Assembly (NCBI GenBank): GCA_947381435.1
Contig: CANCVE010000018.1
Span: forward strand, 1-52,462
DNA length: 52,462 nucleotides
From: Chitinophagaceae bacterium
GTDB taxonomy: Bacteria; Bacteroidota; Bacteroidia; Chitinophagales; Chitinophagaceae
Direction of reading: 5' to 3'
Shown here: positions 6,901-18,855 of the stretch, one piece after another
Position numbering within the stretch: position 1 is the first letter of the stretch
Layout: each line of letters opens with the position of its first letter
The notes under the pieces: model-generated
Databases searched by the model: none
What the model saw: the letters and a program-made list of their open reading frames with translations, nothing else
Told to the model about the DNA's origin: nothing
Program-made: the position numbers and the translations under genes

Positions 6901-8845
6901 TTGCCAAGGTAGAACTACTCATGTATGAGAAATCAATTCCAGGAGCAAAGCATTTCTTAACACCGTTTGATATATCAGTTAATGCTGTGTTCAGGTAAAG
7001 TATATAAGAAGCAGTTGGTAGATGATACAAATCAATAGTCTGAGTTGTTGCAACTGATTCAACGGCATTAAAAACAGTTAACTTTACTAAATAAGTACCT
7101 GCAGCAGTATATGCATGAGATGGTTGAAAAGTATTTGAAGTAGTACCATCGCCAAAATCCCATAAATAGTTTATATCAGCACCGGTACTAGATGTATTTA
7201 CAAAACTGTAACTGTTGGCATTGGTGTAGCAAATTCCTGATTGACCAGTTAAGCTAAATGAGGCAGAAAGGGATGCACCAAAAGAATAATTATTAGTTAC
7301 ATTACTTAAACATCCATTATCAGATGTAGCAACTAGCGTGACATCATAAGAACCGGGTGCAACTGTTTCGCTAAAATTGTTGGTGGCCGACGCATTGCCA
7401 GAAGTTGATGACCAACTGTATGAAATAATAGAGCCACTAGAAATAGAAGACGTATTAGTGAAGCTATAGGCAGTACCAATGTGCGAAGTACTAAATGATA
7501 CCTGTGGCTGTGGATATACAAAAACAGACTGACTAACGGAAGCTGTACCTACTGACGAAGTAACTGTTAAAGTAACAATATGATTGCCCGCTGTACCAAA
7601 CGAATGAGCAGGGGAAGCAACGTTACTACTTACACCATCACCAAAATCCCAAGTGTAAACAATATTAGCCCCACTTAAGGTTGAAGTATTTGTGAACTGA
7701 TAGCTGTTATTAAGCAAACATTTAGGCGCATCTGTAGTAAACGAAGCTACATTAGGACTCACGTTTGTTGTAACCGATTTTGCAATACTGCTAGTACAAC
7801 CTGCATCAGAAGTAACAGATAGCGTAACAGGATATACACCAGAAGTGGCATAAGTATGTTGTAAACTTTGTTGGGCAGAAGTAGTATTATCACCCAAAGA
7901 CCATTGATAATTTGAAATATAGCCAGTTGTAATGGTACTTGCAGAGGTCAAACTAGCTATATTGGTATTTAAGTCGATTGTGAAATCAGCAACTGGTTGA
8001 GGGTTGATTGTAATGTTCTGAACAGCCAACGAACTCTCAGTACCTCTAACTACTTTTAAAGTAATTGTATAGCTACCAAGGGTTGTGTATGAATGACTGG
8101 CATCATAAGTAGATGCAGTATTTCCATCGCCAAAATCCCAAGTGTACACTTCACCATTTCCTTTATCGGATGAATTCGTTAAAACAAAAGAATTTCCGCT
8201 CAAACACTGTGTAGTAGCATTGGCAGCAAAAGAACTATTTACAGTCGAACCAGTAAGGGTAACGGTAACATTTTGCGTTGCTGTGTTTACACAACCTTTA
8301 TCGGAAGTGACTGTTAGAGTTACGGGGTAAACACCAGCAGTGGAATATGTTTTACTAGGATTGCTTGATACATCGCCCGAGCCATCACCAAAACCCCAAG
8401 CATAACTACTTATGTAACCAGAAGTAACAGAAGATTGACTTAAAAAAGTGTATGAATTACCAATGGTAGTACCTGTAAGAACGCTAAAAGATACTGCAGG
8501 AGTAGGGTAAACATAAATTGTCTGGTCGTAATCCGTTGCGTTAGTACCATCTGAAGTTGTAAGATGTACTTTGTAAATTCCAGCAACCAAATAAGTATGC
8601 GAGGGATTAGCATTTGTACTACTAGAGGCATCGCCAAAATCCCAACTGTATGTCAGGTTACCCACTGGATTGTTTACCGCAAACGTAAAACTATTGCTAG
8701 CTAAACAATTACCAATTTGTACACCATTTGCTGGTAGACTACCATTAACGGTAATTTGAGAATTTGCTTTATTAAAACATAATAAAAGCGATAAAAACAA
8801 AAAGCTTTTCAATAATCTTTGACCTTGAAGTAATAAATGTTGCAT
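3932..8845 (-). CDS. Giant secreted multi-PKD-domain protein with T9SS sorting domain
   Basis: 1637 residues. A hydrophobic leader (LLKSFLFLSLLLCF, then NKANSQ) is followed by about 16-17 tandem PKD-like immunoglobulin folds up to about residue 1500. They are recognisable from recurring motifs such as YSWDFGD, YTWDFGDG, YAWVFDDGFT followed by SxNPSHxF and a xxHTVTLTVTN strand. The last four units share the variant FDDGFT and are much more alike than the first ten, suggesting recent internal duplication. The C-terminus (SPNPVSNILNV ... LPRGVYVVSVYNGDGKVV) is a type A sorting domain, so the protein is probably exported by T9SS and anchored or released at the surface. PKD arrays serve as spacers or binding modules; no catalytic domain is visible. 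Function beyond a surface or adhesion role is unknown. Confidence 0.85.
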   Translation of the reverse strand: MQHLLLQGQRLLKSFLFLSLLLCFNKANSQITVNGSLPANGVQIGNCLASNSFTFAVNNPVGNLTYSWDFGDASSSTNANPSHTYLVAGIYKVHLTTSDGTNATDYDQTIYVYPTPAVSFSVLTGTTIGNSYTFLSQSSVTSGYISSYAWGFGDGSGDVSSNPSKTYSTAGVYPVTLTVTSDKGCVNTATQNVTVTLTGSTVNSSFAANATTQCLSGNSFVLTNSSDKGNGEVYTWDFGDGNTASTYDASHSYTTLGSYTITLKVVRGTESSLAVQNITINPQPVADFTIDLNTNIASLTSASTITTGYISNYQWSLGDNTTSAQQSLQHTYATSGVYPVTLSVTSDAGCTSSIAKSVTTNVSPNVASFTTDAPKCLLNNSYQFTNTSTLSGANIVYTWDFGDGVSSNVASPAHSFGTAGNHIVTLTVTSSVGTASVSQSVFVYPQPQVSFSTSHIGTAYSFTNTSSISSGSIISYSWSSTSGNASATNNFSETVAPGSYDVTLVATSDNGCLSNVTNNYSFGASLSASFSLTGQSGICYTNANSYSFVNTSSTGADINYLWDFGDGTTSNTFQPSHAYTAAGTYLVKLTVFNAVESVATTQTIDLYHLPTASYILYLNTALTDISNGVKKCFAPGIDFSYMSSSTLAKGKMHYGWSFGTTAVTYRDGDSVDYINPRIIFDTAGTYPVKLKVTSDKGCVDSFTSIVKLSDPHAKFDYSIDYGGDVYSNPAVSVTNNSYDYGAILTNWNWSYSDGATSALQNPAVHHYTCGGSYNLSLTITSEVPCFNTTSAVVVIKVKPKAAFVISNPNYTPDAFARPTYTFTNGTTANDACPNFQYAWSFGDGYTSSSTNPTHIFKGSGTYTVQLIVTNANGGLKDTTSQSVTVSIKPKALFSTNSSNNPAISFTNSSSSTDTAATVNALHYAWDFGDGNSSGVKSPGAHLYASGGDFTITLTVTNLISGLQDIFSKVVTIKIKPHASFSVGSPVFSPDVFAQPSYTFTNNSTVADLAGNLTYSWNFGDGGSSTATSPSHVYTAGGSFTVTLTATNQNGGLQDVVTSTFTVSIKPKASFTTNLNFNGDAYANPIVELTNTSSVADVNGNLSYAWVFDDGFTTSATSPSHTFTAAGNHTVTLTVTNNNQGVTDVASSSVVIKIKPKADFSVIADYFNNTYSNPLIKLADNSSIADGTQSFFYSWTFDDGFTSTDSHPVHTFTTGGTHTITLSVTNISGGLTDQVTKSVSVDIKPKASFSSSLNYQGDAYSVPLVEVSDASTISDGSNTLTYSWVFDDGFTSIIANPSHTFSTGGSHTISLTVTNIVSGLTDITSGNIDVKVKPKASFTLGLDYNGDIHTNPTVKVTDASIIADGTNTLSYSWVFDDGFTSTDANPSHVFSVGGNHTVTLTLTNTVGGLTDVLAKSIDVVITPKAVINYTTFNDGNGLNVFVNAYNPSDASQNSSIAAGSISSYLWSVTAHNISTNQDFFIGDFNSSTLDIAYFGSDPVDWILNYSLTLTSDLGISETVTGTFENNVVSASLHNYRKSGTTRPTKVIKLPTNDIVIGISPNPVSNILNVGSRFDKTGVLNVVILNLQGKRVAQLANKGIVNTANSTKIDVSALPRGVYVVSVYNGDGKVVGTKKFVKN

Positions 8846-9312: not shown

Positions 9313-12300
9313 ATGACTACCTACCGTCAAACACCGTCAACCAAAACAGCCTGGCTATTCTCAGCCGCTTGTTTGTTACTTTCAATCTTGTTTTCTGGAT
9401 GTCATAAGAAGCATAAGCTAATTGAAATAGATCCTGCATTCAGTAAGTACATAGAAGCGTACACTTCGGGTACTATCTCCAAAAAGAGTGCTGTACGTAT
9501 TCAGTTGGCAGGTGATGCCAAGACAACTCATACTCTCAATGAGCCAATAGATAAGGAACTATTTACTTTTAATCCTAAAGTAGAAGGAAAAGCCTATTGG
9601 ATTGATGCCCGCACCATAGAGTTCAGGCCTACAAAGGAGATGCAGACGGATATGCTGTATGAAGTATCCTTTAAACTAGATGAAGTGCTAAATGTGCCAA
9701 GTAACTTCAGTAAGTTTCAGTTTAATATAGAAACCATCAAACCATCTTTTGAGGTAACCGATAATGGATTGAGGGCTATTGGCAAAACTTCTATGAGCTT
9801 TTCTGGACAAATATTGACTGCTGACGTTCAGGAAAGTGCTGAGGTGGAAAAGCTATTGACGGCATCAATGGGTGGTCAGAGACTAACAATTAGCTGGCAA
9901 CACAATGAGGCTAACAAAACACACGGATTTGTGATTAATAACATTGCTCGTACACAAGCAGCCCAGACCTTACAGATACAATGGGATGGAGCACCACTGA
10001 ACATCAAAATAAAAGATGCTAAAGAGATAGCTGTGCCAGCCATTGGCGATTTTAAGGTGATGGATGTAAAAGTGGTGCAAGATGATGAACAATATGCTTT
10101 GGTTCAGTTCAGCGATCCTATTTCTATTGGTCAATCATTGGATGGATTGATTGTTTTAAGTGGTCAAGAAGCATTGAGTTATACTATTTTGGGAAGCGAG
10201 ATAAAGGTTTATGCAGCTAATAAACTAGATGGCAACTTAACTGCAACGGTTAATGAAGGCATTCAAAATGAGTGGGGCGAGAAGCTGGGCAAAGGATATA
10301 CAAGTAATATCTTCTTTGAGAATAGACTGCCTTCCGTTACCATCGCTGGCAAAGGCGTGATATTGCCCAATAGTGGTGGTAAGATAGTTCTGCCTTTTGA
10401 TGCCGTAAACCTTAAAGCGGTGGATGTATCTATCATAAAGGTTTATGAAAACAATATCCCACAGTTTCTTCAAAGCAACAATATAAATGGCGGTGAAGAC
10501 CTTCGTAAAGTAGCTAAGCCATTGGTACAAGCAACGCTAAAACTAGATGATGACAAGAGTCTTAACCTGAGTAGAAAGAACCGTTTCTCGTTGAGTCTCG
10601 ATAAATATATACGTACAGAACCGGGCGCTATCTATCGGGTTGCAATTACTTTCAGACCTGAATATTCGCTATATACTTGCAACAAAGTAAATGTTCCCAA
10701 AGACGAGGAGGTGAATGAAGATTATTACGGTAATGACAATAACAATGTAGATGATGATGAGGAGTTTTGGAGGCGTTACAATGATAGCTATCCTTATGGT
10801 TACAACTGGGAGCAACGCGATAACCCTTGCAATAAAGCGTATTATAATAGTGAGAGATTTGCTAGCAGAAACATTCTTTCTACCAATATTGGGCTGACAG
10901 CCAAGCGTGGTAGCGATGGCAAACTGTTTGTTGCGGTAAACAATATCCTTACTACCGAACCGATGAAGGATGTGGAGTTGCAGGTAATGGATTACCAACA
11001 ACAAGTAATTGGCAAAGGAACAAGTGGCGATGATGGTATAGCTTTAATGGACATTAAACGCAAACCTTATCTCTTGGTAGCCAAGAAAGTAAGTGAAAAG
11101 AGTTATTTAAAACTGGATGATGGAAGCTCGTTATCACTCTCCAAGTTTGATGTATCAGGTGCGGAAGTAAAGGATGGTATCAAGGCCTTTGTATTTGGCG
11201 AAAGAGGTGTTTGGCGTCCGGGCGATACCTTGTTCTTGGGTTGTATCGTAGAGGATAAAAACAATAAACTACCTGCAGGGCATCCGATAGAAATGCAAAT
11301 AATCTCTCCTCTCAATCAATTATATAAACGTATTGTTCAGCCCAATGCGGCAGATGGATTTAACCTGTTTAAAACAGTTACTGATGCAGAAGCTCCTACC
11401 GGAAATTGGATATGTAGGGTGAAGATTGGGGCTGCCACTTTTGATAAGAAGATAAAGATTGAAACTGTAATGCCCAACCGCTTAAAGATTGCCTTGAACT
11501 TTGCGGGACTAAAAGCATTGGGTAAGAATACAACTACCCAAGGAGAACTATCGGCTTGCTGGTTATTTGGGGCAAAGGCACAGAATCTAAAGGCTAAGGT
11601 GGATGCACAACTGTACAAAGTGAAGACCAAGTTTGATGGTTTTGGTTCTTATCAATTCGATAATCCTACTTCGGCGTTTACGGCACAGAGTAAAACTATA
11701 TTTGATGGCAAGTTAAGTGCGGATGGTACGGCGAGCATCAATCCCTCCTTCGATGCCGGTACCGATGCGCCAGGTATGTTGTTGGCTAATCTGGTGATAA
11801 AAGTGTTTGAGGCAGGTGGCAATTTCAGTATAGACAATATATCCCTCCCTTACCATCCTTACACCTCTTATGCGGGTGTTCATGTACCGGAAGCAAAGGA
11901 TAATTGGGGCTATCTGCAAAGCGGACAAACCCATAAGTTTGATTTAGTGGATGTAAATACGGATGGTCAGTTGGTGAATGGAAGCAATAATCTGGAGGTT
12001 ACACTATATAAGATACAGTGGCGTTGGTGGTGGGATAATAGTGGTGATGGATTGAGCAACTTTACACAAGATAATTACAATAAACTAATCACCAAGGCAA
12101 CTATTGAAACAAGTAATGGCAAGGGCGCCTTTACCGCCAACTTCAAGACGAGCGATTGGGGACGCTATCTGATATTAGTAAAGGATACCAGAAGCGGGCA
12201 TACTACCGGGCAAACCTTTTATGTTGATGATGATGAATGGCGTAGTCGGGGTAACAATGATGATGCTTCTGCCGCAACGATGCTATCCTTTACGGCAGAT

Positions 12301-14886
12301 AAAACCAAGTATAAGGTAGGCGATAAGGCAACACTCACCATCCCGACTGGTAAGAATGGCAGGGCATTAATCAGCATAGAAAATGGTAGTAAGGTACTAA
12401 AGACTTTCTGGGCAAATACTACCGAAGGGCAGACCAAGTTCACGTTTGACATAGAGAAAGAGATGACGCCGAATGTGTATGTAAACGTGAGTACCATCCA
12501 ACCACATGCACAGACCATCAACGATTTACCGATAAGAATGTATGGCGTTTTGTCCTTATTGGTAGAGGATAAGAATACGATACTGAAACCCGTTATCAGG
12601 ATGGCGGATGTGATAAAACCTGAGCAAATTACATCAGTAACGGTGAGTGAAAATAGTGGCAAGCCGATGAGTTATGTGGTGGCAATTGTAGATGAAGGAC
12701 TGTTGGATTTGACCCACTTTAAAACCCCCGACCCGCACGATTACTTCTATGCAAAAGAGGCATTGATGGTGAAGAGTTGGGATGTGTACGACTATGTAAT
12801 TGGTGCGTACAGTGGCGAACTGCAACGGATATTAACCATTGGTGGTGATGCCGAAGCCGCGGCTGCAAAGGCAAGAAAGGCGAATCGGTTTAAGCCTGTG
12901 GTGCGCTTTATGGGGCCATTTAAATCGAGCGGTGGTAGCCAAACACATACTTTTAGTCTGCCTCCGTACATGGGTAGTGTGCGGGTGATGGTGATAGCTG
13001 GCGGCAATGGTGCTTATGGTATGGCAGAAAAAGCCGTGAAGGTGAAAAAGCCTTTGATGATGTTGGCAACCATGCCGAGGGTGTTGGGATTATCCGAATC
13101 GTTTAAGATTCCGGTTACCGTGTTTGCCACCGATAGTAAGATTAAGACCGTAAATCTTAGTCTGCAAACCAATCCTTTTATCTCTGCGGCTTCTTCGCAA
13201 ACCATTACGTTTAATAAACCTGATGAGCAGACTGTTTACTTTAATGCAACCGTTAAGAACAATACAGGTATTGGTAAAGTTCGGATTGTTGCAACAAGTG
13301 GTGATGAAAAAGCAGTCTATGAAACAGAGATAGACATACGCAATCCCAATCCGGTTATTACCCGTGTAAGTGAGGCCACCTTACAGCCCGGTCAACAATA
13401 TAATACATCTGTTGCGATGATTGGAGAGGATAAAAGCAGTAAGGCTACCCTGGAAATATCCTCCATTCCTGCTATCAATCTGGACAAACGTTTGGATTAT
13501 CTGATTAGTTATCCTTATGGCTGCATCGAGCAAACTACTTCTGCCGTGTTCCCTCAATTAGCATTAAATAATCTGATGGAATTGAGTGATGAACGTAAAC
13601 GTCAGATAGACATGAATGTAAAGGCGGCCATCATTAAAATACAAAACTTCCAGCAAACAGATGGCGGCTTTAGCTACTGGCCGGGCTTTGAATCGGCAGG
13701 AAGTGATGAATGGGGTTCTAACTATGCGGGTCATTTCTTGATTGAAGCTTCTGCCAAAGGCTATATTGTGCCTACTTATCTGCTGCAACAATGGAAGGGT
13801 TATGAACGCAAGAAAGCAGCTGAATGGAATATGACCACACCGCCTTATTACGGTTCCGACCTGATGCAAGCATACCGTTTATACTTATTGGCACTGACTA
13901 AATCGGCTGATCTTGGCGCTATGAACCGATTGAAAGAATATAAATTTCTAACGATAGAAGGTAAGTGGCGTTTGGCTGCTGCATATTACCTGATAGGCCA
14001 GAATCAGGTGGCGTTGAACCTTATCAGTGGCTTACCTAAAACCTTTAGCAGGCATCCTTTACCGGGCATTACGTTTGGCAGTGACCTACGCGATGAAGCG
14101 ATGGCATTAGAAACATTGACCGTAATGGGCAGACAAGGTGAGGCGACTGAACTGGTAAAGACCGTTGCCAACAACTTAGCACAAGAACAATGGTTCAGTA
14201 CCCAAACAACGGCGTATGCCTTGCTGGCAATTGCCAAATACTGTGGTAGCAATAAGGGCGATAAGAAGTTGATTGTAAATGGAACCGTTTCGGGTAAACC
14301 TTTAAGTCTCAATAGCAATAGTTCCATCTCTCAAACCGCCATTGTTTGGCAAGGGGGCAAAGGCAGTGTGCAATTGAGTAACAAGGGCAATAACGTATTG
14401 TATGTGCGGGTAATTAATAAGGGGCGACCTGTCAGTACTTCTCCTACCCCGATAGTGAATAACCCCAATATATTGCAGGTATCTGCCAGTTATACCTCTA
14501 CAAGTGGACAAGCCATTGACATAACCAAACTGAAACAAGGCACTGATTTCGTGGCTAAGGTGACCATCAAGAACCCTGGCACGAGGGGATTGTATAGTAA
14601 GATGGCATTAACGCAGGTGTTCCCGAGTGGATGGGAGATATTGAACACACGATTGTTTAATAGTGAGGGACAATTTAAGTCGTCGCCGAGCGATTATATG
14701 GACATAAAAGATGACAGGGTGAACCAATACTTCGACATCAAACAGGGCGAAACACTTACCTATTATGTACAATTGAATGCTGCCTATCTGGGCAAATACT
14801 TCTGGCCGGGAGTGTATTGCGAAGCTATGTACGACAATACCATCAGCGGCGGCGTAGGAGGTAAATGGGTGGAAGTGGTTGAATAG
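9313..14886 (+). CDS. Alpha-2-macroglobulin family lipoprotein (YfhM-like) with intact thioester motif
   Basis: 1857 residues. The leader AWLFSAACLLLSILFSGC gives a lipobox-like site with Cys30, so membrane anchoring is likely. Macroglobulin-type domains fill the N-terminal part; the A2M-type core includes FVFGERGVWRPGDTLFLGC (about residue 630) and IVDEGLLDLTHFKTPDP (about 1130). The thioester motif is at residues 1402-1407, YGCIEQ, with Cys1404 and Gln1407 both present. An alpha-helical thioester-domain region follows (FQQTDGGFSYWPG). Bacterial homologues are thought to trap attacking proteases in the periplasm and are usually paired with penicillin-binding protein 1C. Here pbpC lies 8 kb downstream on the same strand, separated by an accessory island. 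The first residues (TYRQTPSTK) are encoded by accgtcaaacaccgtcaacc at 9323-9342, a fragment of repeat C. Confidence 0.9.
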   Translation: MTTYRQTPSTKTAWLFSAACLLLSILFSGCHKKHKLIEIDPAFSKYIEAYTSGTISKKSAVRIQLAGDAKTTHTLNEPIDKELFTFNPKVEGKAYWIDARTIEFRPTKEMQTDMLYEVSFKLDEVLNVPSNFSKFQFNIETIKPSFEVTDNGLRAIGKTSMSFSGQILTADVQESAEVEKLLTASMGGQRLTISWQHNEANKTHGFVINNIARTQAAQTLQIQWDGAPLNIKIKDAKEIAVPAIGDFKVMDVKVVQDDEQYALVQFSDPISIGQSLDGLIVLSGQEALSYTILGSEIKVYAANKLDGNLTATVNEGIQNEWGEKLGKGYTSNIFFENRLPSVTIAGKGVILPNSGGKIVLPFDAVNLKAVDVSIIKVYENNIPQFLQSNNINGGEDLRKVAKPLVQATLKLDDDKSLNLSRKNRFSLSLDKYIRTEPGAIYRVAITFRPEYSLYTCNKVNVPKDEEVNEDYYGNDNNNVDDDEEFWRRYNDSYPYGYNWEQRDNPCNKAYYNSERFASRNILSTNIGLTAKRGSDGKLFVAVNNILTTEPMKDVELQVMDYQQQVIGKGTSGDDGIALMDIKRKPYLLVAKKVSEKSYLKLDDGSSLSLSKFDVSGAEVKDGIKAFVFGERGVWRPGDTLFLGCIVEDKNNKLPAGHPIEMQIISPLNQLYKRIVQPNAADGFNLFKTVTDAEAPTGNWICRVKIGAATFDKKIKIETVMPNRLKIALNFAGLKALGKNTTTQGELSACWLFGAKAQNLKAKVDAQLYKVKTKFDGFGSYQFDNPTSAFTAQSKTIFDGKLSADGTASINPSFDAGTDAPGMLLANLVIKVFEAGGNFSIDNISLPYHPYTSYAGVHVPEAKDNWGYLQSGQTHKFDLVDVNTDGQLVNGSNNLEVTLYKIQWRWWWDNSGDGLSNFTQDNYNKLITKATIETSNGKGAFTANFKTSDWGRYLILVKDTRSGHTTGQTFYVDDDEWRSRGNNDDASAATMLSFTADKTKYKVGDKATLTIPTGKNGRALISIENGSKVLKTFWANTTEGQTKFTFDIEKEMTPNVYVNVSTIQPHAQTINDLPIRMYGVLSLLVEDKNTILKPVIRMADVIKPEQITSVTVSENSGKPMSYVVAIVDEGLLDLTHFKTPDPHDYFYAKEALMVKSWDVYDYVIGAYSGELQRILTIGGDAEAAAAKARKANRFKPVVRFMGPFKSSGGSQTHTFSLPPYMGSVRVMVIAGGNGAYGMAEKAVKVKKPLMMLATMPRVLGLSESFKIPVTVFATDSKIKTVNLSLQTNPFISAASSQTITFNKPDEQTVYFNATVKNNTGIGKVRIVATSGDEKAVYETEIDIRNPNPVITRVSEATLQPGQQYNTSVAMIGEDKSSKATLEISSIPAINLDKRLDYLISYPYGCIEQTTSAVFPQLALNNLMELSDERKRQIDMNVKAAIIKIQNFQQTDGGFSYWPGFESAGSDEWGSNYAGHFLIEASAKGYIVPTYLLQQWKGYERKKAAEWNMTTPPYYGSDLMQAYRLYLLALTKSADLGAMNRLKEYKFLTIEGKWRLAAAYYLIGQNQVALNLISGLPKTFSRHPLPGITFGSDLRDEAMALETLTVMGRQGEATELVKTVANNLAQEQWFSTQTTAYALLAIAKYCGSNKGDKKLIVNGTVSGKPLSLNSNSSISQTAIVWQGGKGSVQLSNKGNNVLYVRVINKGRPVSTSPTPIVNNPNILQVSASYTSTSGQAIDITKLKQGTDFVAKVTIKNPGTRGLYSKMALTQVFPSGWEILNTRLFNSEGQFKSSPSDYMDIKDDRVNQYFDIKQGETLTYYVQLNAAYLGKYFWPGVYCEAMYDNTISGGVGGKWVEVVE

Positions 14887-15657: not shown

Positions 15658-16010
15658 AATTTTGTGCTAATTAGTCAGTCCCCGAAATCGGGGACACCTT
15701 AATTTGTACAAATTATAGGCATGGTAAAAACTGGGACACGTTAATTGGTACAAATGAGAGGCTAGCCAATTCGGGGACACGTTAATTGACACAAATTATA
15801 GTCTCTCTCAAAATTGGGAGGCACTAATTTATGCTAATTAGTCAGTCCCAGAAAAAAGAGACACTATAATTTGTGCATTTTAGTGCCTCCACGGAATTAT
15901 GGAGCCTCATTTTGCCACAAACCAGGGTGTCCCCGAAAATAGATACCCATTAATTGGTACAAATTAGGGATGTTTAGAAATGTTGGCACGCATAATTTAT
16001 TGCAAAATGG
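15658..16010. repeat. Phased array of about nine degenerate 41-42 bp units with palindromic cores
   Basis: AT-rich cores related to the perfect 16-bp palindrome taatttgtacaaatta (15700-15715) start at about 15658, 15700, 15741, 15782, 15824, 15866, 15908, 15950 and 15992, that is every 41-42 bases. Between cores lie short GC-richer segments, several of which form their own hairpins with different sequences: gtccccga/tcggggac at 15678-15695, ctctc/gggag near 15806-15820, and cctcc/ggag near 15886-15904. Many units begin gggacac just before the core. There is no long ORF. Unit-to-unit identity is low, so this is an old satellite or a multi-site protein-binding region, not a CRISPR array. It fills most of the 15581-16428 gap. 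Confidence 0.75.
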
Positions 16011-16857: not shown

Positions 16858-16910
16858 GGTCTGAATTAAAGCTACAATAGATATCCACTCTCTTTTTATT
16901 TTCGCCGATG

Positions 16911-16997
16911 TTGGTGTTCTTCACAACATTTATAAAACGCAAGTCCTATATCTGAAAAGTTAAATTGATACAAATTGCTGTTGGTGAAGAACACCAA
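16911..16997. repeat. 14-bp perfect inverted repeat just upstream of the template-like fragment
   Basis: The arms ttggtgttcttcac (16911-16924) and gtgaagaacaccaa (16984-16997) are perfect reverse complements with a 59-base loop. The right arm ends 11 bases before the DGR template-like fragment. The loop also contains gttaaattgatacaaatt (16959-16976), which resembles the core of the 42-bp array upstream. The rest of the 16858-17331 gap has no gene. Confidence 0.65.
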
Positions 16998-17008
16998 AAA
17001 CGGCAGAA

Positions 17009-17057
17009 ACACCCCTAGCAATAGGAACAACAACCTAGGTTTTCGGTTGGTTTCTCC
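17009..17057 (+). other. DGR template-repeat-like fragment (or a decayed second variable region)
   Basis: This 49-base segment matches 17969-18017, in the 3' end of the downstream gene, at an offset of exactly 960 bp. Four positions differ (17023, 17029, 17030, 17032). At all four the upstream copy has A and the downstream copy has G; 13 of the 49 bases here are A. In frame it reads TPSNRNNNLGFRLVSP, with the run of AAC (Asn) codons typical of DGR templates. Identity ends abruptly on both sides: 17058 onward diverges, and 17001-17008 shows non-A differences, so the 5' part of a usual ~100-bp template is missing or decayed. A paralogous gene remnant is the main alternative. Confidence 0.6.
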
Positions 17058-17264
17058 CGAGCTTAAAAGGGTGGATGGATGTCCCCATACTGTTAAACCG
17101 GTCATTGTCCTTCCACCGTAACAAGTGGCAAATTTTTACCCACAGCTCGGTATCAGTAGGCAAAAATGCCGAAAGTTCCGGTGCTGTTCTAAGGTAGGAT
17201 TAAATGATTTAAATAAAAGTATGATTGATGGATATTTTCGTTTACACAACTGGATGGGAAACAT

Positions 17265-17293
17265 ATTTGACAACTTTTTGAAAGTTGTCAAAT
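17265..17293. promoter_or_regulatory. 13-bp perfect inverted repeat before the DGR target-like gene
   Basis: The arms atttgacaacttt (17265-17277) and aaagttgtcaaat (17281-17293) flank the 3-base centre ttg. The element ends 38 bases before the ATG at 17332. No T tract follows on either strand, so a terminator is less likely than an operator or an RNA hairpin in the 5' leader. The binding factor is unknown. Confidence 0.5.
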
Positions 17294-17331
17294 CGTGATA
17301 ACAATGTTTTCTTAATCTTAAAAAATAAACA

Positions 17332-18024
17332 ATGAGCAAAAAAATAGTTTTTCTTTTTCTTTTGATGGATGTATTTTATGTATCCACTAATGCGCAATCT
17401 TACCCCACGATGGTGCATGTGCAAGGCGGCAGTTTTAGCATGGGTGCCGATGATGACAATGCAGGAACAACGATGACCGTGAAATCTTTCAGCATTGCAC
17501 AGACAGAAACTACCGTACTTCAATGGAAAACATTTTGCAATGAAACTGGGCATAGTATGCCCGAAGCCCCTAGTTGGGGATGGATAGACAGCCACCCCAT
17601 TGTTAACGTAAGCTGGGACGATGCGGTGGCTTATTGCGATTGGCTGAGTGACAAAACTAGTAAGATATATAGACTACCTACCGAGGTGGAGTGGGAATAT
17701 GCCGCCCGTGGCGGCAGCCAAAGCAAAGGGTTTAAATACAGTGGCGGGCAGAGTTTGGATAATGTGGGCTGGTACACCGATAATAGTGGTAGCCAAACCC
17801 ACCCAGTGGCCCAGAAAAGAGCCAATGAATTAGGGCTGTACGACATGAGCGGAAATGTAGAGGAGTGGTGCAAGGATTGGTATAACGGTTCTCATAGCCG
17901 CAGAGTGTGCCGTGGGGGCAGTTGGTTCTACTCAGCGGCTTTCTGCCTTTTGGCTTTCCGCTACTTCTACACCCCTAGCAATGGGAACGGCGACCTAGGT
18001 TTTCGGTTGGTTTCTCCTAGCTAG
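17332..18024 (+). CDS. FGE/SUMF1-fold secreted protein, probable DGR target (variable protein)
   Basis: 230 residues. A signal peptide (IVFLFLLMDVFYVSTNAQS) precedes a formylglycine-generating-enzyme fold: MVHVQGGSFSMGADDD (about 27-42), IAQTETTVLQW, PIVNVSWDDAVAYCDWLS, YRLPTEVEWEYAARGG, YDMSGNVEEWCKDW, RVCRGGSW (192-198) and GFRLVSP (223-229). The region after GGSW (199-221) reads FYSAAFCLLAFRYFYTPSNG then NGD: F, Y, A, G and D codons mostly keep a C in the third position, as expected when AAC codons are mutated at adenines. The active-site pattern GGSWxCxxxxC of true FGE is not met; only the second Cys (205) is present, so sulfatase maturation is unlikely. DGR targets commonly use this C-type-lectin-like fold to display variable ligand-binding residues. 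No reverse transcriptase is encoded in the window. Confidence 0.75.
   Translation: MSKKIVFLFLLMDVFYVSTNAQSYPTMVHVQGGSFSMGADDDNAGTTMTVKSFSIAQTETTVLQWKTFCNETGHSMPEAPSWGWIDSHPIVNVSWDDAVAYCDWLSDKTSKIYRLPTEVEWEYAARGGSQSKGFKYSGGQSLDNVGWYTDNSGSQTHPVAQKRANELGLYDMSGNVEEWCKDWYNGSHSRRVCRGGSWFYSAAFCLLAFRYFYTPSNGNGDLGFRLVSPS
17911..18017 (+). other. Putative DGR variable region (VR)
   Basis: This is the 3' end of the FGE-fold gene, codons 194-229. Codons ttc, tac, gct, ttc, ttc, tac, ttc, tac, ggc and gac stand where template AAC codons would be expected. The invariant 3' segment ctaggttttcggttggtttc, continuing to 18017, is shared with 17009-17057 and would serve as the initiation-of-mutagenic-homology-like end. 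The stop codon follows at 18022-18024. Confidence 0.6.
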
Positions 18025-18195: not shown

Positions 18196-18855
18196 TTATT
18201 CTTGCACAACAACCTCCATTACATCTTCTTCCATTTTCGTTTGTACCTTTTTGAAGTATTCCTTGTCATACTCTTTTTTTGTCTTGAATACTGTATATAC
18301 CATTTCCAATAATTTCCTTTGTACTGCCACGGCTGCTTTCATCTTGATGCCATGTTTGGACACTAGCCTGACAAATATTGCCTTGAATCTTTCATCATGT
18401 CTGATGGCTGACAGTGCTGGTAAGTGCATTGCCCTTCTCAAATGCTTGTTACCCTTCTTCGAGATGGATGGCTTTCCCTTTACCGAAGTACCCGATTGTT
18501 TTTCCCTCACATCAAGCCCTGCATAGCTTGCCAATTGTTTCTTGTTTCGTATCAGTTCAAACCCGTTTGTCTCCCCAAGTATGGTGGCTGCTGTCAACAG
18601 TCCAATCCCTGTAATAGAACAAATCAACAGCACTATAGCTTGCGTTTCAGTGTCTGTTCTTATTAATTCGGACACCTCTACCATGATTTCCTTCAGTTGT
18701 TTGCCTATCAACTCAAGCCTGGCCGTCCCTCTTTTGATACTTTTTTTGTTCGGTTTTGCACCAGCCTTTTCTGCATGCAACTGGTTCTTTATCACTACAC
18801 TTTCATCCATCAACTGTCCCCCCCCGCTGCCGCACGTCAAATCAGGTTGTTGCAC
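18196..18855 (-). pseudogene. Truncated IS110-family transposase (Transposase_20 half only)
   Basis: 219 codons, of which the first ~13 (MQQPDLTCGSGGG) are translated from repeat A and are not transposase. The rest carries the C-terminal IS110 domain: LICSITGIGLLTAATILGE (helix-hairpin-helix), SYAGLDVREKQSGTSVKGKP, SISKKGNKHLRRAMHLPA and a final RKLLEMVYTVFK. The serine-containing QSGTS block is intact. The N-terminal DEDD nuclease half that full-length (over 300 aa) members need is missing, replaced abruptly by the repeat near 18821. A small hairpin-forming ggggca/tgcccc segment (about 18169-18190) lies just past its 3' end. The protein is almost certainly inactive. Confidence 0.8.

Follow-up and report, generated by a model that had tools for sequence, protein, structure and literature searches.

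The question raised by this locus is whether a gene bearing the marks of adenine-directed mutagenesis is still being diversified by a diversity-generating retroelement (DGR), is what is left of one, or never belonged to one. The window, by which we mean the whole 52,462-nucleotide stretch of Chitinophagaceae contig CANCVE010000018.1 analysed here, contains a short sequence that recurs at the 3′ end of a gene lying downstream of it, and three features are needed at the outset:

17008-17057, plus strand: putative 3′ half of a DGR template repeat (TR), reading NTPSNRNNNLGFRLVSP, with the 5′ half missing
17332-18024, plus strand: target gene, an intact open reading frame of 230 amino acids with an FGE-sulfatase (C-type-lectin-like) domain
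17911-18017, plus strand: putative target-gene variable region (VR), running from RGGSW to where the TR homology stops

The positions and the A-to-G pattern of this repeat pair, from which the original prediction was drawn, are borne out. Segments 17009-17057 and 17969-18017 are identical at 45/49 bases, each of the four differences being an A upstream and a G downstream, and the pair was recovered independently in a repeat search of the window (family D4, 49 nt, spacing 960, 92%). The description of the differences as exclusively A-to-G holds for these 49 bp and fails when the comparison is extended by one base, as 17008/17968 is a fifth difference with A upstream and T downstream, beyond which the match ends; the copies diverge immediately 3′ of 17057/18017. 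Over the 50 bp the TR fragment and the VR share 45 identities, 5/5 differences fall at a template A, and 0/36 non-A template positions differ. The upstream copy contains 13 A's in 49 bases, and the probability that 4/4 differences fall on A by chance is 0.0034, close to the earlier figure of about 1 in 200, or 0.00094 for 5/5 with the extra base; both values leave the free choice of base and direction out of the calculation. A chance repeat with a chance A-bias draws some support from this latitude, and also from a control in which 2 of 13 window diagonals with a 42–46/49 repeat pair confine all their mismatches to A on one side, the second being a pair of dispersed repeats (18823/19686). Because another repeat pair in the window shows the same bias, the A-bias alone is no proof of a DGR. 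Against coincidence stand a 92% match across 49 bases where a gene related to DGR targets has its 3′ end, the template codons, the recurrence of the fragment pattern in a complete DGR and the stem-loop match (see below), and we regard a chance origin as scarcely credible.

The TR fragment carries template-type AAC codons at places where the templates of related complete DGRs have AAC. The idea that the upstream piece could be a second variable region is therefore unsupported. The best reading takes the piece for the 3′ half of a DGR template and the tail of the gene for the VR of a DGR. A pattern derived from the fragment (AGGAACAACAAC plus degenerate codons) matches in 2/396 genomes of the order, once in the window itself and once in the template of a complete DGR in genome G621; the pattern is narrow, G100 and G128 being among the 396 genomes and yet having templates that do not fit it. 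Fragment DNA patterns had 0 matches in genome_contigs and 0 in viral_contigs. In the G621 DGR (L213/L218) the template has bAvd (PF22296) and RVT_1 (PF00078) genes next to it, and the VR has 79 matches, 17 mismatches at A and 0 others over 96 nt. Comparable figures (match/A-mismatch/other) are seen for the DGRs with FGE-type targets in G128 (89/13/0 over 102 nt, with a reverse transcriptase [RT] of 368 aa), G100 (66/13/1 over 80 nt, in the order target, RT, template), G086 (85/11/3 over 99 nt) and L146 (76/23/0 over 99 nt, RT of 356 aa), the last lying on a contig labelled Cloacimonadota, with a 112-aa open reading frame in the position of Avd. The template 3′ ends of these four resemble the NTPSNRNNNLGFRL of the window, and the G086 template and the window fragment have a 20-base run, AGCAATAGGAACAACAACCT, in common. 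We also note that the RT frame beside the FGE target in G086 (L066:816-1316, contig C20) is only 212 aa long (166 from ATG) and continues in frame into the template, possibly reflecting a truncated RT or an assembly edge. According to PMC3521204, truncated RTs occur in DGRs, the order of DGR cassettes varies, and several targets are possible.

The target protein has the FGE/C-type-lectin-like fold attributed to it, with an FGE-sulfatase domain (PF03781) at residues 24-227 (E 1.4e-50). Among solved structures its sequence is closest to that of Treponema denticola variable protein 1 (PDB 2y3c, E 1.1e-29; the runner-up is at E 9.7e-19), which we take to be a DGR target. Such a domain with a VR at its C-terminus is the arrangement looked for in DGR targets of this fold. 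The N-terminus is hydrophobic and was read as a signal peptide by eye, without a predictor. The tail was aligned with five reference templates (G128, G100, L146, G086 and G621), an Asn position being one with Asn in at least 4/5. At the 12 Asn positions the target reads F, Y, S, F, F, Y, F, Y, N, N, G and D, and 10 of the 12 codons end in C, compared to 50/193 before the tail (binomial P 5e-5) and 5/21 among the other tail codons, so the run of C-ending codons reported after GGSW is as described. Two residues count against a DGR: tail residue 8 is TCA and not NNC, and tail residue 13 is Leu (CTT), where 5/5 reference templates encode Arg. The short stretch preceding the tail is 13 residues long, within the 5–34 range of the 49 distinct stretches that the window and the fetched loci provide.

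The nearest whole-protein relatives (57–58% identity) show no sign of a DGR, which counts against a relic. One of them, in G078 (58%), was considered as an intact source and rejected; it has a VR-like tail without a second copy, and the sole RVT_1 match of that genome reads LPQGTPTSTHIANL and is presumably retron-like. The target gene is absent from the 12 other genus members at E 1e-30, and protein searches of phages and plasmids (25 and 628 records) yielded no match that reached 60% identity. In an AlphaFold2 model of the target (11-sequence alignment) the tail is poorly modelled, with residues 173-222 at pLDDT <50, whereas the relative L021 is well folded on the same 11 sequences (mean 78.8). 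A damaged protein is possible on this account, and the poor tail model may indicate either a damaged fold or merely an unusual tail.

To the right of the TR fragment, and between it and the target gene, lies a further feature:

17138-17193, plus strand: putative stem-loop like those 3′ of templates in other DGRs (AGUA...GAA core), matched by covariance model R1

The model derives from 80 viral DGR-type RT loci, the best 80 of >515 relatives. Together with eight others these make 88 RT loci, in 76 of which TR/VR pairs were called by our own script with hand-set thresholds. A recurring AGUA...GAA core inside a stem is seen 3′ of the templates, and in our view resembles the bulged-G (loop E) motif. 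Of 58 candidate loci (a subset of the 76 with a called template), 20 went into R1, the window being excluded; these 20 were selected by visual inspection for a stem and a GTAG/GAA core, after the script had already kept the longest-stem candidate per locus. Standard pairs make up 89.1% of the 220 pair cells of the R1 alignment, 70 cells are changed on both sides, and a covariation score of 0.867 compares with 0.257 in shuffles and ≤0.255 when slid, all of these figures being inflated toward structure because the loci were chosen by stem. When held-out loci were searched, 22/68 matched at E≤5 (56/68 have a called template), although the 22 include some that nearly duplicate one another or a training locus (L239, L240, L242). 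The covarying stem-loop is found 3′ of templates in both RT-TR and TR-RT orders (L146, L218, L219-L298).

R1 has a single match in the window at E≤10, that at 17138-17193 (17.5 bits, E 0.025), and a larger model, R2, scores the same stem-loop lower (14.7 bits, E 0.19). Elsewhere R2 gave two matches at E≤10 in 81 other loci (1.18 Mb) and none in five RT-bearing loci, three of which (L064, L066 and L114) have called templates. The window stem-loop starts 81 nt 3′ of the TR fragment on the right strand and at the usual spacing; it is 184 nt from the inferred template start, against 179–250 nt between template-stretch start and match start in 28 loci with a called template, the starting point being defined differently in the two cases. 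A scan of the genome itself, with 150/279 candidates scored, does not list the window match and places a site on contig C39 at 16.2 bits (E 7.3). The stem-loop thus supports a DGR through its position, the match not being significant genome-wide. The 181 nt from 17030 are no more stable than shuffled sequences (z -0.29), and so the claim rests on the covariance model and the position, and not on folding energy.

Two explanations of the repeat can now be compared. If the upstream piece were the remnant of an ordinary FGE paralogue, and no DGR had ever been present here, it would be in keeping with the naturally variable surface positions of FGE tails, and several close relatives do have similar tails without a detectable template. 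This would leave unexplained the template-like AAC codons of the piece, the DGR-type stem-loop 3′ of it, and a 45/49 match to the VR when such a tail is seen in none of the other FGE genes of the genome. We have set it aside on the template codons, the pattern matches and the stem-loop, and consider it very improbable. The originally proposed DGR target cassette is supported by the likeness of the template peptide to those of complete DGRs, by the stem-loop at its usual spacing, and by the best solved match.

It had been left undecided whether the RT of this cassette acts from elsewhere in the genome or has been lost, and a genome search for a DGR-type RT and for a full template of ~100 bp had been proposed. 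The genome is a draft of 4.88 Mb in 231 contigs and 98.23% complete. It contains no RVT_1 (PF00078) match above the cut-off, the one weak match lying in an open reading frame read as anthranilate-synthase-like, and no match to a DGR-RT alignment; a tblastn search of the window with two DGR RTs found nothing significant (best E 1.1). No further template copy was found in the genome, and only the 3′ 50 bp of a ~100-bp template are present. These results favour the loss of the RT and disfavour its action from elsewhere. None of eight window proteins scanned around the locus shows an Avd or HRDC accessory gene. The DGR-RT alignment does match in 4/13 genus genomes, all four among the 12 other members; two of these matches read QGGVISPLL, which we assume to be of the group II intron type, and two read IPIGPDTSH and IPVGPVLSD. 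DGR RTs carry an SQ motif (IGxxxSQ), and all four matches are without it.

A live remote target is one alternative: an RT and full template in an unassembled part of the genome would still diversify the gene, and the local fragment would be a leftover. The draft state of the assembly accommodates this, and with 231 contigs the absence of an RT is not final; the lack of any non-A difference at 36 positions is also in keeping with it, and DGRs acting on remote targets are known (PMC7517822). However, 4.88 Mb without an RVT_1, DGR-RT or second-template match, and four genus RT matches (QGGVISPLL or IP(I/V)GPxxS) that lack the SQ motif, make it improbable. Of the features of an active DGR, the locus shows VR differences at template A's (5/5 over 50 bp), but neither a DGR RT nor a ~100-bp template was found in the draft genome; what is seen, a VR-bearing target and a recognisable template piece with no RT found, corresponds to a DGR relic.

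The surroundings of the locus indicate how the template may have been broken, and include the following features:

16897-17006, no strand assigned: dispersed repeat with inverted ends, adjoining the broken 5′ TR edge; copies on C50 (72%) and C139 (74%) of the same genome
18012-18095, no strand assigned: dispersed repeat starting at the 3′ VR end and supplying the stop codon region; copies on C76, C1, C40 and C2
18196-18855, minus strand: IS110-type transposase remnant with the C-terminal Transposase_20 (PF02371, E 5.5e-25) and no other domain

To the left of the first repeat is a DUF3293 gene common to G001 at 93%, with the similarity extending up to 16879. No template 5′ half was seen left of the 16897-17006 repeat, and a clean insertion into the template therefore fails as an explanation; a deletion, or the arrival of an already truncated piece, explains the break. 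The second repeat holds an internal direct repeat (D5), and 3′ of it are the transposase remnant and then toxin-antitoxin genes. The stretch from the macroglobulin gene (9313-14886) to about 22300 differs among genomes G000, G001 and G010, and both flanks are conserved at 89–95% with same-genus genomes; because the flanks are syntenic at this level, the contig belongs to the genome.

The break at the edge of a dispersed repeat in a fragmented genome could also arise from misassembly, the junction at 17007 bringing together a repeat and a template piece from separate places. The other copies found of the repeat are only 72–74% identical, and a search with 77 bases spanning the junction gave no second good match in the genome (next E 0.3), both of which argue against a false join within the genome; we judge a misassembly still less probable than an ordinary paralogue.

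Several other features of this region can be recorded. The IS110-type transposase frame begins inside a dispersed repeat at ~18821, as if its N-terminal part had been replaced. This 70–128 nt repeat occurs in window segment 18822-22862 at 18822, 19685, 19756, 20496 and ~21490, with gene units between the copies (Gp49/HTH, DUF4258, HEPN/nucleotidyltransferase, then PemK-like and ParE-like toxins), such that the segment looks like a repeat-delimited array of toxin-antitoxin cassettes. Further copies are on other contigs of the genome, and many are in same-genus genomes. Short repeats with ~42 and 84 bp spacing (families D2 and D3) lie at 15661-15966, between the macroglobulin operon and the DUF3293 gene. 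GldJ/K-like proteins were noted in the genome by reading, and a Por secretion tail in the domain scan, both of which fit an origin in Bacteroidota.

Taken together, these observations make it highly probable that the locus is an inactivated DGR relic with a frozen lectin-fold variable gene. That it is DGR-derived we hold with high confidence, and it is very probably inactive. Still present are the variable gene, the template in its 3′ half, and a putative stem-loop resembling those downstream of DGR templates. In the past, a DGR RT would have copied the template RNA, misreading template adenines, and the cDNA would have taken the place of the 3′ end of the FGE-fold target, giving the F/Y-rich VR. 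A rearrangement with its edge at the 16897-17006 repeat would have removed or left behind the remaining DGR parts, with the consequence that the VR would no longer change and the cell would keep a single variant; the target protein of today is thus presumably a fixed, probably exported, ligand-binding protein. Either the RT was lost at the locus, or the target arrived in the repeat-rich island without it. In PMC3521204, inactivated DGRs with differences at A only are taken to be recently broken, and by that argument the 0 differences at 36 non-A positions, few as these positions are, suggest a recent inactivation.

A more elaborate version of the relic reading, to which we give only limited credence, is that the locus is a domesticated DGR product, in which a useful binder and a template stub were kept, the mutating machinery was shed, and the frozen gene came to reside as one unit in a repeat-delimited island whose other contents are toxin-antitoxin genes. 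Were this so, binders made by DGRs would be passed on ready-made, with no mutator alongside, and template stubs lacking an RT would be the signature. The locus itself leaves the picture of how DGRs work unchanged. RT-first surveys miss targets distant from an RT, as PMC8144416 says of its own method, and our analysis suggests that a template stub with a downstream stem-loop could point to dead or split DGRs; it would then be possible to ask how frequently diversified binders become fixed once the mutator is gone.

Two further observations concern other loci. In a Planctomyces MAG, L137:7032-7298 is a VR-like tail copy with 6 A-mismatches and 8 others relative to one at 10556; after it comes an R2 match (24.8 bits, 7247-7298), and this is perhaps another decayed DGR. 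The viral contigs L050 and L051 carry a row of three FGE-type genes whose VR-like tails all differ, and a script scan found no template within 10.5 kb.

Comparison with known systems places the locus as follows. First, the complete DGR of G621 has its own Avd, its own RT and a whole template, all three of which the window is without; its template ends NTPDNRNNNLGFRL where that of the window ends NTPSNRNNNLGFRL, and a stem-loop lies downstream of it, as the putative one does here. Secondly, Treponema denticola variable protein 1 (PDB 2y3c) can be aligned through the target tail, the alignment covering only about the domain. Thirdly, the Rfam RT-14 RNA (RF02921) overlaps the stem-loop stretch in 3/11 DGR loci scanned, but window stretch 16950-17340 has no RF02921 match even at E≤10, and Rfam gave nothing relevant in the window; the AGUA/GAA stem-loop may belong to a wider RNA family known in part as RT-14. 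PMC12875486 describes a spacer 3′ of the template that folds and recruits RT and Avd. Finally, all3226, as presented in PMC7517822, is likewise a target with a TR-VR remnant and no RT gene nearby; it is a cyanobacterial paralogue, unlike the window gene. Removal of the machinery once a good variant had been selected is suggested there for an RT-less TR-VR remnant, and since such a remnant has already been reported, the window represents a further case of a known kind.
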